From contig NZ_VCNL01000001.1 of the NCBI RefSeq assembly GCF_007671685.1, positions 62,001 to 126,000 on the forward strand: a DNA stretch of 64,000 nucleotides, read 5' to 3'. A program made the position numbers and the translations under genes. Shown piece after piece: positions 1,557 to 9,619 of the stretch. Position 1 is the stretch's first letter; every line of letters starts with the position of its first letter. The stretch is from Halorubrum salsamenti. GTDB lineage: Archaea > Halobacteriota > Halobacteria > Halobacteriales > Haloferacaceae. The notes under the pieces are model-generated. The model saw only the letters and a list, made by a program, of their open reading frames with translations. It was not told the origin of the DNA and made no database searches.

Positions 1557-2791
1557 GCGAGGCGGCGTTCGACTCGGTCTCATTCTTGGAGCAGGCGGTC
1601 CGAACGCCCTCTCACCAATCGGTCGACGAGATGCGGGACCTCGCCGTCGAGACGCTCGACCGGTTCGGGATCGAGAGCGAGGTCGCCGCCGGCGGCTGCG
1701 TGCTCGCCGAGAAGCGCTCGGACGCGCCCGACGACGGGCCGCACCTCGTGTTGAACACCCACCTCGACACGGTGACGCCGCACGTTCCCTTCGATCGCGG
1801 GGACGCTCGCGAAGACGAGCGAGGCGACTCCGCCTCCACCGATCCCGCCTCTAACGACGGATCCGGAGACGTGATCCGCGGCCGCGGCGCCTGCGACGCG
1901 AAGGGGCCGCTCGCCGCGCTGCTGTCGGGGTTCCTCGCTGCCGAACCGGACTGCGGGCGGCTCACGCTGGCGCTCACCCCGGACGAGGAGTCGCTGTCGC
2001 TCGGCGCGGCCGCGCTGACCGGTCGCTCGCCCGGGACCGAGGACCGGCTCGACGGCGACCTGTTCCTCGTCGGCGAGCCGACGGGTCTCGACGTCTGTAC
2101 CGCCGCGAAGGGGCGGTTTCAGGGGACCGTGGAGCTGTCGGGGACCGCGGCCCACGCCGCGGAGTTCGCGGGGGCGAACGCGGTCGCGGCCGCCGAGGGC
2201 GCGCTCGCGGCGATCCGAACGTTCGACGACGGCGCCGACGGACACCCCCAGCTCGGCCCGCCGAAGCTCACCCCCACCGTCATCGGGGGCGGCGGTGCGA
2301 CGAACCAGGTGCCCGCGGACTGCGAGATCACCGTTGACCGACGGAGCGTCCCGCCCGAGACCGCCGAGGGGTTCCGGTCGTCGCTCGCGGACGCGGTACG
2401 GGAGTCGACGCCCAACGACGTCGGCGTCGCGGTCGCGCTGACGGACCGCGAGTCGCCGTTCTTCGAGGCGTTCTCGACGGACCCGGACCACGAACTGGTG
2501 GAAGCGGTCGCGAGCGCGGCTCGGACCGCCGGCGAGTCGGTTGGGCTCTCTGCGGACCGCGGCGGCACCGCCCGCCCCTTCGGTGCGGCGACGGAGGCGT
2601 CGTACTTCGCGCCGGCGCCGACGGTCGTGTTCGGCCCCGGCGACCTCGCGGACGACGCCGGGGCGGTCGCGCACGCCGAGCGGGAGTACGTCCGGGTCAG
2701 CGAGGTCGAGGCGGCCGCGGAGACCGTCGAACGGTCGATCGCGGCCCTACTCGGAGACACGGGTACGACGGCGGGCGGAGACGCGGTCTAG
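1553..2791 (+). CDS. dapE: M20-family deacylase, probable succinyl-diaminopimelate desuccinylase
   Basis: Zinc-dependent M20 amidohydrolase of 412 residues. Metal-ligand motifs are visible: NTHLDT (His70, Asp72), GACDAKG (Asp115), PDEES (Glu145, Glu146), GEPTG and a late His in VAHAER. Its place after lysA and dapF, with an ATGA overlap, points to removal of the succinyl group from N-succinyl-LL-DAP. Family resemblance alone would not separate it from LysK or ArgE-like deacylases, so the substrate is inferred from context. An acidic insertion lies near residues 82-107. The stop overlaps the convergent NYN gene through a palindromic CTAG. Confidence 0.85.
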   Translation: MSEAAFDSVSFLEQAVRTPSHQSVDEMRDLAVETLDRFGIESEVAAGGCVLAEKRSDAPDDGPHLVLNTHLDTVTPHVPFDRGDAREDERGDSASTDPASNDGSGDVIRGRGACDAKGPLAALLSGFLAAEPDCGRLTLALTPDEESLSLGAAALTGRSPGTEDRLDGDLFLVGEPTGLDVCTAAKGRFQGTVELSGTAAHAAEFAGANAVAAAEGALAAIRTFDDGADGHPQLGPPKLTPTVIGGGGATNQVPADCEITVDRRSVPPETAEGFRSSLADAVRESTPNDVGVAVALTDRESPFFEAFSTDPDHELVEAVASAARTAGESVGLSADRGGTARPFGAATEASYFAPAPTVVFGPGDLADDAGAVAHAEREYVRVSEVEAAAETVERSIAALLGDTGTTAGGDAV

Positions 2792-3285
2792 AGGAGGAAC
2801 GTCTCCTCCTCTTCCGCGAGGTCGACGAAGTCGTCGGCGGCGTCGATCAGTTCGTCGGCGGCGGAGTTGCCGAAGCCCATGGCCTCGACGCGGACCCCCT
2901 CGTGGCGGAGGTGCGAGCAGAGCCGGGCGAAGTCGCCGTCGCCGGTACAGAGCACCACCGTGTCGACGTGGCTCGCTAGCGAGACGGCGTCGAGGCTTAT
3001 CCCGAGGTCCCAGTCGGCTTTCTTCGAGCCGTCGGCGAACGTCTTGATGTCCTTGATCTTCGTCTCGAAGCCGATGTCGCGCAACGCCTCGAAGAAGCTC
3101 TCCTCCTCCGGCGAGTCGGCGCGGATCACGTACGCGATGGCTCGAACGAGCGATCGGTCGTTGACAGCCTCTTCTAGTAGTCCCGAGTAGTCGATATTTC
3201 GAGAGTACACGCTCTGTGCGGAGTGATACAGATTTTGTGAGTCGGCGAGCACTGCGACGCGCTGATCGGGGTGGATTTCGGTCAT
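2788..3285 (-). CDS. NYN-domain (LabA/DUF88-like) PIN-fold protein
   Basis: A 165-residue protein consisting of a single NYN domain, a PIN-like metal-dependent RNase fold. Acidic residues sit where the family places metal ligands: Asp15 in LADSQN, Asp91 and Asp93 in KADWDLG, Asp116 and Asp118 in TGDGDF. Related proteins are thought to act as RNases or RNA-processing factors; the substrate here is unknown. It is transcribed toward the lysine operon and overlaps the dapE stop by 4 bp. The C-terminal tail is acidic. It is monocistronic as far as can be seen. Confidence 0.85.
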   Translation of the reverse strand: MTEIHPDQRVAVLADSQNLYHSAQSVYSRNIDYSGLLEEAVNDRSLVRAIAYVIRADSPEEESFFEALRDIGFETKIKDIKTFADGSKKADWDLGISLDAVSLASHVDTVVLCTGDGDFARLCSHLRHEGVRVEAMGFGNSAADELIDAADDFVDLAEEEETFLL

Positions 3286-3361
3286 ACGCCCCGTTCGACC
3301 CGGTGGCTTAGGGGTTTTGGGATCCGTCTGTCTTGTCGCGCAAGTCGATGTCGATCTGGGT

Positions 3362-3370
3362 GTTTTTGTA
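3362..3370 (+). promoter_or_regulatory. TATA-like box for the solute-binding protein gene
   Basis: The T-rich motif gtttttgta is centred about 27 nt before the GTG at 3393, the spacing seen for many genes of this window and expected for a leaderless archaeal transcript. A second T/A-rich run, cttatttga, lies closer to the start. Confidence 0.4.
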
Positions 3371-3392
3371 TTCCTTCTTATTTGATTAGAAC

Positions 3393-5306
3393 GTGCTACG
3401 GCAGCGTGATCACGGTAGAACTGACAGAGAGAGTTATGTTGGCCGGCGGCAATGGCTCTCCGCGCTCGGTGCCGCCGGCGTCGCGCCGCTGGCCGGCTGT
3501 TCCGACCGGGGCGGCGACGGCGGCGATGAGGTCAGCGGAAGGGACGGCGGGGACGGACGTGACGGAAGCGGCGGTGGCGACACCGTGTCAGCCGGTCGCT
3601 TCCCGCGGTTCGGCGTCGACGACCTGTACGGCGAGGAGGTCGCTCGCGACCTCGCGCGGCAGGCGTTCGAGGGGTCCGAGTACGACTACGGCTTCGACGA
3701 CGGGGACCTGATCACCCCCGAGGGCGACCAGGTCGAACTCGATATCTACCACCGTGCAGACCAAGGTGTCTCACGGGCCACCGCCGAGTTCATCGCCCGG
3801 GAACTCGGCAACAACCTCGGCATCGACGTCGTCCCCCAGGCGATCGACGGCACCCGGTTCAACAACGAGTACTGGACCGCCGAGCCGCAGGGCGGTACCG
3901 ACACCGTCGACGGGGAAGAGATCGAGTGGGCGGACCCGACGCCGCAGAACCCTGGCCCGCGGTCCGTCACGAGCGAGGAGCCGTGGGACATGTCGATCGT
4001 GTTCGGGCTGAACACACATCCACTCAACCCTCTGGCGAACGAGATGTTCTTCGACGGTGCCAACCCGTTTTACAACCCGGTCGGCTACTACCCCGAGTTC
4101 GACGCTACCGGGCTGTTCGAGGACGCTCGACAGGCGACCGGCCGCGACGAACTTCGGCGGGCATTCGTCGACCTCTTCGAGAGCCTCGCCCGCGAACAAC
4201 CGTACATCACGCTGCTGGTCAGAGACGACCTCATCGGTTACAACTCCGACCTCAACGGGCCGGTCGGGAACTTCTCGAACGGCTGGGACCTGCCGGCGTG
4301 GTACTTCGACGACCCCACCGTCTCCGGGTCGTACGACACCGTCACTTCGGACGGATTCACGACGCTGAACCCGCTGTACAACACTGAGAGCGGCGATCAG
4401 ACGGCGATAGCCCGTGCGCTCGATCGGGGGTACACCTTCGACGCGAACCAGGAGTACGTCCCGCTCCTGTACGATATGTCCACCGAGGACGGCGAGGTGT
4501 GGACGTTTGACGTCCGAGAGAACCTCCGGTTCAGCGAGCCGTACGGACGGGTGACGGCGGAGGACTTCGTCTACCTGATTCAGCGGCTCCACCAGAGCGA
4601 CTGGGCGAACACGGCGGCGTCCAGTAGTTGGGACGGCGTTGAGGTCGAGCAGACCGGGGAGTTCCGGTTCGAGGCGACGCTGGAGACGCCGAACCCGCTG
4701 TGGCCTCGGACGAACGACCCGCTCCTGTATCCGATCCCGCGTGGCTTGGTCGAACCGTACGTCGAGGAGGAGGACGTCGACGGGCTCGAACAGGACGAGA
4801 AGCTGCTGGAGCTCCGGTTCACCGGCAACCTCGGAGCGTTCACCCTCGACGAGTGGAACCGCGGCTCCGGTACGGAGTACACCCGCAACGACGAGTACTA
4901 CCTGCGTGACGTCGACGAGGGGCCGGACCTGTTCGCCGAGGGGCCGCTGTTCGAGGAGGCATCGATCAGCGTCGTCGAGGACCAGGCGTCCCGTCTCGAC
5001 GCCTTGGAGACCGGAGAGGGCGACTCGGTCGCCGTCCCGCCGGAGCAGTACGAGTCGTACGACGAACGCGACGGCGTGACAGTCCGGCAGGTGCCCACCG
5101 CTTACAACACGATCGTCTCCGTGAACCAGCGTGCGAACGGATGGAACGCCGGTCCGGGAAACCTGTTCCAGCGCGTTCCGTTCCGGCAGGCGCTGGCGTC
5201 GGCGATCAGCAAAGATCGGCTCATTCAGGACGTCTACCGTGGGCTCGCGGAGCCGCACTTCACCTGGCAGCCTCGCTGGTCCGAGTTCCATCCGGGCGAC
5301 GACTGA
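3393..5306 (+). CDS. ABC transporter solute-binding lipoprotein (SBP_5, peptide/nickel type), lobes in permuted order
   Basis: A 637-residue extracytoplasmic binding protein. The N-terminus carries a Tat signal with lipobox (GRRQWL at 17-22, LAGC at 33-36), then a Gly/Asp-rich linker. The following segment (about 72-306) resembles the C-terminal lobe of haloarchaeal oligopeptide-binding proteins, for example LGIDVVPQAIDGTRFNNEYW and the final GWDLPAWYFDD. Only after it (about 315-637) comes the N-lobe, with TTLNPLYNTES, the SBP_5 signature PLLYDMSTEDGEVWTFDVRE followed by VTAEDFVYL, and FRQALASAISKDRL. The chain stops at EFHPGDD, where a normal protein would run on into FGVDDLYGEE, which here sits near the start. 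No permease or ATPase genes are adjacent. The GTG start is set by the Tat motif. Confidence 0.88.
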   Translation: MLRQRDHGRTDRESYVGRRQWLSALGAAGVAPLAGCSDRGGDGGDEVSGRDGGDGRDGSGGGDTVSAGRFPRFGVDDLYGEEVARDLARQAFEGSEYDYGFDDGDLITPEGDQVELDIYHRADQGVSRATAEFIARELGNNLGIDVVPQAIDGTRFNNEYWTAEPQGGTDTVDGEEIEWADPTPQNPGPRSVTSEEPWDMSIVFGLNTHPLNPLANEMFFDGANPFYNPVGYYPEFDATGLFEDARQATGRDELRRAFVDLFESLAREQPYITLLVRDDLIGYNSDLNGPVGNFSNGWDLPAWYFDDPTVSGSYDTVTSDGFTTLNPLYNTESGDQTAIARALDRGYTFDANQEYVPLLYDMSTEDGEVWTFDVRENLRFSEPYGRVTAEDFVYLIQRLHQSDWANTAASSSWDGVEVEQTGEFRFEATLETPNPLWPRTNDPLLYPIPRGLVEPYVEEEDVDGLEQDEKLLELRFTGNLGAFTLDEWNRGSGTEYTRNDEYYLRDVDEGPDLFAEGPLFEEASISVVEDQASRLDALETGEGDSVAVPPEQYESYDERDGVTVRQVPTAYNTIVSVNQRANGWNAGPGNLFQRVPFRQALASAISKDRLIQDVYRGLAEPHFTWQPRWSEFHPGDD

Positions 5307-5344
5307 TCTCCCGGCGCTACCGATCTCCGAGTAGCGGCTCGCCC

Positions 5345-6094
5345 TCAACGGGTCTCGAGCGCCGGAAGCGTCGCCCGCTCCGGCTCCGGCGGCTCGGGGT
5401 CGGTGTCACCGACGACCACCGCCAGATCGCCGCGGGACTCGCCGTTCTCGCGGCCGGAACCCCTCTCCGTCAACACGATCGTTCCGCCGACCGAGAGCGG
5501 CGCGACCACCCCGGCGGCCAGCGCCCGTGGGTCCGAGAGGTCGCTCCGGAGGACGACCCGGGTCTCAGCGTCGATCCCGTGTCGCTCGGCGGCCGAAGCC
5601 GCCGCCGCGAGGAGGGCTCGGTGGGTGACCTCGCCGGCGGCGGCGCGGACGACCGGGTCGTCGGGACCGACCGCGCTCGGCGGCATTCCCGGGTTCTCGC
5701 TCCACAGCTCCTGTTCCCAGTGGGTCGTCTCGGGGCGGTCCGGCGGGCCACCGAAGGCGGCGAGGTTGGTTCCGGGTGCCGGTTCGGTCGCCGCCTCGTC
5801 CTCGATGGAGACGAGGACCACACGGTCTCCCCGTTCGATCCCCGCCGCGGGCGCGAACCGGACCGGGGCGCCCATCCCCGCGGCACCTAAAAAGGCGAGC
5901 GTCGTGTGGAGTCCCGGCGTCGGATCGACGGCGACCGTCGACCCCTCGCGGGCGCCGAGATAGCGCAACACGTTGGCGGCCTTGTACGCGTTGGTGATCA
6001 GATCTCGATACGTGCGTTCGCGGCCGTCGGCCGTGACGAGCGCGGTGTCGCGGCTCCGCCGGTCGCGGGCAAGCAAGTCGCCGACGACGTCCAT
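5345..6094 (-). CDS. Short AMP-dependent synthetase-like protein lacking the adenylation core
   Basis: This 249-residue protein resembles the N-terminal subdomain of acyl-CoA synthetases: GRERTYRDL near residues 24-32 and a substrate-binding-like segment with AVDPTPGLHTTLAFLGAAGMG. It lacks the ST-rich SGTTGxPK loop, the YGxTE motif and the C-terminal catalytic lysine, so adenylation seems unlikely. Short proteins of this type are, as I recall, found intact in other haloarchaea, which favours a conserved noncatalytic protein over a recent fragment. The ATG at 6094 is preceded by a short AT-rich run. Function unknown; it is not clearly linked to the solute-binding gene convergent to it. Confidence 0.6.
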   Translation of the reverse strand: MDVVGDLLARDRRSRDTALVTADGRERTYRDLITNAYKAANVLRYLGAREGSTVAVDPTPGLHTTLAFLGAAGMGAPVRFAPAAGIERGDRVVLVSIEDEAATEPAPGTNLAAFGGPPDRPETTHWEQELWSENPGMPPSAVGPDDPVVRAAAGEVTHRALLAAAASAAERHGIDAETRVVLRSDLSDPRALAAGVVAPLSVGGTIVLTERGSGRENGESRGDLAVVVGDTDPEPPEPERATLPALETR

Positions 6095-7873: not shown

Positions 7874-9619
7874 ATGACAACTGAAGAGTACGTTCACGTC
7901 GCCGACCTCGACGACCTCGCCGCGGAGGGGCGGGCGGTCGTCTCGGCGGGCGGTCGGGCCGTGGCGCTGTTCCACCACGAGGACGAGGTGTACGCCGTCG
8001 ACAACCGGTGTCCCCACATGGGGTTCCCGCTGTCGGAGGGGAGCGTCGAGGAGGGGGTACTCACCTGTCACTGGCACCACGCGCGGTTCGAACTCGAGGC
8101 GGGCGACACGTTCGATCCGTGGGCCGACGACGTCCAGACGTTTCCGGTGGTGGCCCGTGACGGCCGCGTGTACATCGATCCGGACCCGGAACCGGACGTC
8201 CCGCCGGCGACCCGATGGCGGAACCGGCTCGCCGACGGCCTCCAGGAGAACCTGCCGCTCGTCATGGCCAAGTCGGTGGTTGGACTCGACGACCACGGCG
8301 ACGGGTTCATCACGCCGCTGGAAACGGCGGTGAACTTCGGCACCCGATACCGCGCCGGCGGCTGGGGGCGCGGGCTCACGACGCTCGGCTGTCTGGCGAC
8401 GCTCCACGACCACCTCGGCGGTCGGGACCGACGACGGGCGATGTTCCTCGGGGTCCGCGAGGTGGCGGCCAACTGCGCCGGCGAGCCGCCGCGGTTCCAG
8501 GGGTACTCGTTCGACAACCGCGACGTGCCGAAGGAACGGCTGCAGTCCTGGTTCCGCGACAACTGTGAGGTCCGCGACGAGGACGGCGCGGAGCGGGTGC
8601 TGTTGACCGCGGTCGACGCGCTTCCCCCTGCAGACGTCGCGGACCTGCTGTTCACGGCCGCCACCGACCACCTCTACATGAACAGCAGTCACACGCTCGA
8701 CTTCATCAACACCGCCTTCGAGACGCTGGACCACGTGGGGTGGGCGGAGCACGCCGACGCCGTCCTCGCCTCGGTCGTCCCGGCGATCACCGACGCGAGC
8801 CGGTCCGAGGAGCGCTCCTCGTGGCGGAACCCGGTCGACATCGCGGCGTTGTGCTTCGACGCCGCCGACCGCCTCCCGGAACTGGTCGCCGAGGGCGAGG
8901 GCACGCGATGGAAGCGCCCCGACGACTTCGTCGAGACGCTGCTCTCCGCGGATCCCCACGAGATCATCGAGGCGCTCACCGGTGCGATCCGGTCCGGGGC
9001 CTCGGCCGAACGACTGGCCGATGCCGTCGCTCGGGCCGCGACGCACCGGGTGGCCTACTTCGCGACCAACAACGAGTTCGACGACTGGAACACCGTCCAC
9101 CACACGCTGTCGTACGCCAACGCCGTCCACCGAGCGACGACGCGCACCGACACCGCGGCGCTGTACCGCGGCTGTTTCGACGGCGCGATGTCGGTGTATC
9201 TCGACCGGTTCCTCAATTCGCCGCGGGCACCGGTCCCCGAACCGGGCGACGGCGACGGCGACCGCGATCCCGAGGCGATCCGCGAGGACCTGCTCGCGTG
9301 CTTCGACGAGCAGGGCGCGGTGAACCGCGCCGGCAGGCTGGTCAACGACCACTTCGACGCGGGCGGGGATCCCGCGGCGCTCAAGCGGACGCTGAGTCGC
9401 GGCCTCCTCCGGGAGGACGCCGGCTTCCATACGATCCAGAACTTGGAGGCCGGGATCCAGCGGTTCGAGGTGATCGACGACGAGCGGGGTCGACGGCTGG
9501 CGCTGATCGCGCCGGCCCGATACATGGCCGCACACTTCCCGACGCGCCGCGAGAACGAACAGACCTTCTCGATCGCGACACGGCTCCATCGCGGCGAGAA
9601 GCTTCACGAGGCGACGTGA
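7874..9619 (+). CDS. Rieske [2Fe-2S] domain fused to a large helical His-rich domain
   Basis: A 581-residue protein with two parts. Residues 1-105 form a Rieske ferredoxin-type domain with both ligand pairs: CPHMGF (Cys46, His48) and CHWHHARFE (Cys65, His68). The remaining 470 or so residues are predicted mostly helical and contain paired histidines in segments such as TDHLYMNSSHTLDF and NTVHHTLSYANAVH, which could bind a metal or haem; this domain is not the alpha subunit of classical ring-hydroxylating oxygenases. I recall Rieske proteins of about this length in bacteria, but with no assigned role. It is likely a redox enzyme whose electron acceptor site lies in the C-terminal domain. It interrupts the dnaJ-dnaK pair on the opposite strand. 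Confidence 0.85.
   Translation: MTTEEYVHVADLDDLAAEGRAVVSAGGRAVALFHHEDEVYAVDNRCPHMGFPLSEGSVEEGVLTCHWHHARFELEAGDTFDPWADDVQTFPVVARDGRVYIDPDPEPDVPPATRWRNRLADGLQENLPLVMAKSVVGLDDHGDGFITPLETAVNFGTRYRAGGWGRGLTTLGCLATLHDHLGGRDRRRAMFLGVREVAANCAGEPPRFQGYSFDNRDVPKERLQSWFRDNCEVRDEDGAERVLLTAVDALPPADVADLLFTAATDHLYMNSSHTLDFINTAFETLDHVGWAEHADAVLASVVPAITDASRSEERSSWRNPVDIAALCFDAADRLPELVAEGEGTRWKRPDDFVETLLSADPHEIIEALTGAIRSGASAERLADAVARAATHRVAYFATNNEFDDWNTVHHTLSYANAVHRATTRTDTAALYRGCFDGAMSVYLDRFLNSPRAPVPEPGDGDGDRDPEAIREDLLACFDEQGAVNRAGRLVNDHFDAGGDPAALKRTLSRGLLREDAGFHTIQNLEAGIQRFEVIDDERGRRLALIAPARYMAAHFPTRRENEQTFSIATRLHRGEKLHEAT

Follow-up and report, generated by a model that had tools for sequence, protein, structure and literature searches.

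Natural circular permutations are usually inferred from distant homologues. In the standard route to them, a gene is duplicated in tandem and the outer halves of the pair are then lost. Among solute-binding proteins (SBPs) we found one natural case in the open-licence literature. TpMglB-2 (Tp0684) of Treponema pallidum, designated 'type Ic / cluster Bc', is a permuted and membrane-tethered SBP that still binds glucose (PMC4990184). Its authors considered the topology a possible adaptation to tethering; the permuted segment shows poor conservation and is of uncertain origin (PMC4990184). Engineered SBP biosensors likewise combine a bilobed SBP with circular permutation. However, these are artificial and the permuted part is an inserted fluorescent protein, the SBP itself being unpermuted. 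Our searches of that literature for natural circular permutants among family-5 SBPs, or among haloarchaeal proteins, yielded nothing beyond TpMglB-2; earlier reports elsewhere are possible.

Here, we describe a gene within 64,000 nucleotides of Halorubrum salsamenti DNA (contig NZ_VCNL01000001.1, positions 62,001 to 126,000; hereafter, the window). We are confident that it encodes a lipid-anchored, exported family-5 (cluster C) SBP with a naturally permuted chain, which has lost its importer genes and persists as an orphan under purifying selection. The ligands would probably be peptides or similar solutes. The protein resembles the SBP_bac_5, or cluster C, proteins DppA, OppA, AppA and NikA in its match to Pfam PF00496, its lipobox and, in most relatives, its dppBCDF partners. 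It differs from them in having a rotated chain, with new termini in the loop before a helix (residues 81-94) or, in other clades, in the turn after this helix. The likeness to TpMglB-2 is that a tethered SBP has been circularly permuted in nature. However, TpMglB-2 is a bacterial cluster B sugar binder, whereas the haloarchaeal proteins are archaeal and belong to cluster C. SBP_bac_5 is the sole Pfam match of the window protein, which does not point to cluster B sugar-binding ancestry. Furthermore, unlike TpMglB-2, the haloarchaeal permutants are highly identical to collinear orthologues that share their locus, and they have several origins. The haloarchaeal permutation is independent of that in TpMglB-2.

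The open reading frame (3393-5306), read as a translation, has a GTG start and encodes 637 amino acids. The order is a Tat/lipobox signal, a Gly/Asp-rich linker, the SBP_5 C-terminal part and then the N-terminal part. All features of the gene are on the + strand. The Tat-type lipoprotein signal peptide (RRQWLSALGAAGVAPLAGC, 3393-3500) has its lipobox cysteine at residue 36. This export signal with a lipid anchor, consisting of an RR motif and LAGC lipobox, is kept among permuted relatives; in an alignment of the permuted proteins, RR18-19 and C36 are nearly invariant. A Gly/Asp-rich tether linker follows (3501-3599), and residues 1-76 form a low-confidence segment of the AF2 model. The C-terminal part comes first in the chain (residues 70-308; 3600-4316). 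It matches residues 388-629 of a collinear relative, L099, and PF00496 only weakly. Within it, the turn D102-G104 (3696-3704) is equivalent to a second cut site used by other permuted clades, and is uncut here; the site was located by comparing the heads and tails of those proteins with collinear relatives. At the junction (4314-4331), the old C-terminus (..PAWYFDD) is joined to the old mature N-terminus (PTVSGSYD..). For comparison, the collinear relative L077 ends ..FPAWYFDE and has the mature start ..PSVSGTYDTV. Last in the chain is the N-terminal part (residues 311-637; 4323-5303), which matches PF00496 and ends at cut site 1 (EFHPGDD). Hence, the arrangement of signal, C-lobe and N-lobe given in a preliminary description of this DNA was correct, as was its statement that signal peptide and lipobox are intact.

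The whole protein matches PF00496 significantly (143 bits, with a cut-off of 32.4), but in two stretches. The best of these places residues 362-628 on profile positions 9-249. Taken alone, residues 311-637 match profile positions 8-249 (E = 2.8e-37), while residues 70-310 match positions 266-338 weakly (E = 0.0024, under the curated cut-off). In contrast, L099 gives a single stretch (profile 13-328). The absence of a single collinear, full-length match, and the reversed order of the two stretches, identify the window protein as a permuted variant rather than an ordinary member. This is the result that the preliminary description predicted for a HMMER search. Note that order-dependent searches detect only half of such permuted SBPs, which is a warning for annotation. 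The permuted order is found in 19 of 52 Halorubrum genomes, including that of the window. For 17 of the 18 other genes, the match to the window protein is near full length, in one piece, with 68-81% identity. The remaining gene (L045; genome G036, Halorubrum sp. CSM-61) has a frame broken in the linker. About 15 other Halorubrum genomes have the ordinary order, with 48-67% identity in the N-terminal part, mostly at the identical chromosomal locus. None of the 52 genomes was seen to have both orders. The reversed Pfam matches, the 19 independent genomes, the collinear orthologues at the same locus and the agreement between the affinities of both halves (see below) support the earlier proposal of a real circular permutation.

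Permuted and collinear orthologues are surrounded by the whole, or part, of the same locus order: dapF-dapE-NYN-SBP-dppBCDF-AMPbind-cupin-dnaJ-dnaK (dapE is dapE/M20). In the window, the conserved neighbours are an NYN-domain gene to the left (2788-3285, - strand; PF01936) and an AMP-binding-fold gene to the right (5345-6094, - strand; PF00501). Both serve as synteny anchors. The product of the latter has 249 amino acids and matches only about the first 70 of the 384 AMP-binding profile positions; this shortened member of the fold is conserved beside dnaJ/dnaK in Halorubrum. Most relatives, including H. lipolyticum, have a gap of 4.6 kb between the SBP and AMP-binding genes that encodes dppB, dppC, dppD and dppF. 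Beside the window gene, these adjacent importer genes are absent; the site (5307-5344) consists of 38 bp, with no recognisable dpp remnant. Hence, the observation that no transporter genes adjoin the gene holds for H. salsamenti, but comparison with relatives indicates that this is a secondary loss. The dppBCDF genes are also missing at the locus in H. halophilum, H. saccharovorum and H. salipaludis. Separate absences are found beside a permuted gene of genome G051 (L073) and a collinear pair from genomes G018 and G026 (L082 and L086). In L073, a dppC fragment lies past the SBP stop codon (8881-9093, 65% over 46 amino acids, E = 8e-17), which is direct evidence of transporter deletion in that lineage. 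The transporter appears to have been lost, with the SBP kept, on at least three occasions. The collinear orphans L082 and L086 occupy an identical locus and have a dN/dS of 0.31 between them. Four permuted genes of genus g91 (L162-L165, clade B2) are further orphan SBPs, with no recognisable dpp genes within 15 kb.

Many genuine SBPs are orphans, and an adjacent importer is no strict criterion for an SBP. In relatives, the permuted form is the binding protein of a DppBCDF importer. After deletion of the importer genes in the window's lineage, the orphan may work with a different Dpp-type importer; the genome encodes other Dpp-type permeases (about 33% identity). Alternatively, it may be a binding or sensing lipoprotein. 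Immediately upstream of the gene, and abutting the GTG start, is a probable leaderless promoter region (3360-3392, + strand; gtgtttttgtatt...gattagaac), this role being suggested by upstream conservation. A near-identical counterpart precedes the permuted orphans in H. halophilum and H. saccharovorum. In H. lipolyticum and H. kocurii, too, TTTTTGTAT lies upstream. Such conservation before the start codon of orphan genes suggests that they are still expressed. It is possible, though we think it unlikely, that the window protein has become a neofunctionalised surface protein and is an importer subunit no more. Loss of the transporter in the window's lineage, independent losses in G051 and in collinear G018 and G026, and the g91 genes without recognisable dpp genes nearby, would fit such a change. 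However, most permuted genes still lead a dppBCDF operon. Furthermore, the losses in which the SBP was retained include a collinear pair, so loss is not tied to permutation.

In Halorubrum, the tree of the transporter conflicts decisively with that of the SBP. In the Halorubrum SBP tree, permuted proteins are apart from collinear ones (SH-aLRT of 98). Conversely, the dppBCDF tree unites, with support of 100, seven species with a permuted SBP (H. ezzemoulense, H. sodomense and others) and five with a collinear SBP (H. xinjiangense, H. tebenquichense, H. distributum and others). In AU tests, each data set rejected the grouping found in the tree of the other (p below 1e-70). Between H. sodomense and H. 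xinjiangense, DNA identity is 87.5% over 8 kb that begin just past the SBP stop codon; for the SBP itself it is 72-77%, in rotated order. Hence, permuted and ordinary SBPs adjoin transporters that are about 90% identical. The conflict between the trees, and the similar transporters beside both forms, indicate that SBP genes have been swapped within the operon while the transporter stayed. If so, permuted and ordinary SBPs would be functionally interchangeable. Note that an old duplication, with differential loss of both SBP forms, would give the same tree picture.

Permutation is not confined to Halorubrum. Family- and order-level searches identified further permuted genes in families f1, f4 and f7; across Halobacteriales there are 27 more, all cut about 35 residues later, in one beta-turn. 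Most of those checked among 26 permuted SBP_5 genes outside Halorubrum (L059-L068, L149-L156 and L158-L165) lead dppBCDF operons. A class-wide search with a clade-B2 protein gave one more permuted-type match, in G470. Plasmid searches gave matches only in two pieces, or over half of the query, and no clear permuted copy. The permuted genes form clade A (19 Halorubrum genes), A' (L157, from G405), B1 (11 genes) and B2+B3 (15 genes). Cut site 1, in clade A, lies before the helix at window residues 81-94. Cut site 2, in A', B1, B2 and B3, is a tight turn that links two short strands (residues 418-425 of L099, YEF-DGD-ELV). The A' gene (7251-9308 in L157) has dppBCDF downstream and sits near the collinear relatives of clade A; its product is 62% identical to the window protein and 63-68% identical to collinear L077. 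It is probably a separate permutation.

To count origins, trees were built after rotating all permuted sequences into the ordinary order. Four order changes are needed in a tree of 146 genes (46 permuted) and, again, in a careful tree of 65 genes, where a single change suffices in 0% of 200 bootstrap trees. Placing B1, B2 and B3 in one clade is rejected by the AU test (p = 1e-4). Hence, a single origin for the clade-B genes cut at site 2 is discarded, barring reversals. A clade of A with A' is not rejected (p = 0.128); however, their cut sites differ. A' is set apart from B by many fully supported branches. By parsimony, the shortest history would comprise four gains, one at site 1 in Halorubrum and three at site 2. 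We consider it improbable that there was instead one ancient permutation, with a later return of the intervening collinear clades to the ordinary order and a shift of about 35 residues in the Halorubrum cut. The shared loop of A', B1, B2 and B3, and the AU result for A with A', are in keeping with such a course. However, that history takes more changes than four gains, among them repeated restoration of the exact ordinary order; the rejected clade of B1, B2 and B3, and the distance of A' from B, also oppose it.

We are evenly divided on whether permutation acts as a recurrent switch, open to selection, in the lipid-anchored SBPs of haloarchaea, with at least four origins, three of them in the same short turn. 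A permuted SBP could then take the place of an ordinary one while the adjoining transporter stays nearly unchanged, perhaps because the tether is thereby moved to another face of the protein. The repeated use of one turn in tethered SBPs offers a way to approach the proposal, made for TpMglB-2, that the anchoring point is adjusted by permutation. Because permuted and ordinary orthologues share one locus in one genus, beside transporters about 90% identical, the effect of permutation is directly testable. The genus-wide distribution, repeated origins and lost transporter go beyond the preliminary description.

In separate trees of the N-terminal and C-terminal parts, the two parts of every permuted clade share their nearest collinear relatives, wholly or with overlap. 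For clade A, these are the Halorubrum genes L099, L050 and L101. We conclude that one gene was rotated, rather than unrelated paralogues fused. The suggestion, made as an alternative in the preliminary description, that two neighbouring paralogues fused after a deletion, so that the halves derive from different genes, is hence very improbable. Nearby SBP copies do exist in the family (two collinear copies are about 5.6 kb apart in L111), but the halves are placed equally and collinear Halorubrum orthologues occupy the identical locus. Note that fusion of very recent, identical copies would be the duplication route itself. The new tail (EFHPGDD) and new head (FGVDDLYGEE) flank one loop in L099 (FYPGDD-DLPQ-FGMGDEYG, residues 381-398), with the equivalent of cut site 1 at 381-391. 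Since they are the two sides of one continuous collinear stretch (FYPGDDDLPQFGMGDEYG in L099), little or nothing is missing, as first described. Most likely, a collinear ancestor underwent tandem duplication and then lost the two outer halves, although we found no intermediate with the duplicated order N-C-N-C. Signal peptide and linker would have been retained in front. The old C-terminus would have been joined to the former start of the mature protein, and the loop preceding helix 81-94 opened to give new ends. As a result, the membrane tether would now enter close to where the old C-terminal part begins, and not at the old N-terminus.

The permuted protein probably keeps the bilobed Venus-flytrap fold. 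In its AF2 model, helices and strands follow the list for the collinear protein, in rotated order. The model is mediocre (mean pLDDT of 61.5, compared with 82.5 for the collinear relative), so that the case for folding draws more on conservation than on the model. The model of the collinear orthologue matches AppA, NikZ and DppA over the full length. With Foldseek, which depends on chain order, the permuted model aligns over only about 250-300 columns of OppA, DppA and AppA, and the collinear model over about 590.

Presence of the order in 19 genomes excludes chance or mis-assembly. For the mature part, NG86 dN/dS values are 0.11-0.36 among permuted Halorubrum genes and 0.07-0.23 among collinear ones. 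The permutant has therefore been kept in evolution and is no one-off artefact. Pairs that include the orphan lineage have values of 0.21-0.33, somewhat above most operon-bearing pairs. These ratios indicate that the orphan SBP of the window's lineage is under purifying selection, although its function may be relaxing. That the gene is an artefact of assembly or frameshift, or a pseudogene in decay, can be dismissed with near certainty: the window copy is an orphan and the CSM-61 copy is frameshifted, but the order is identical across the 19 genomes, several of which are in few contigs, the frame is intact in all but one and dN/dS is well under 1. The break in the CSM-61 copy (at about 7780-8130 in L045) falls within the Gly/Asp-rich linker that connects the signal peptide with the mature part, and is either a frameshift or a sequencing error.
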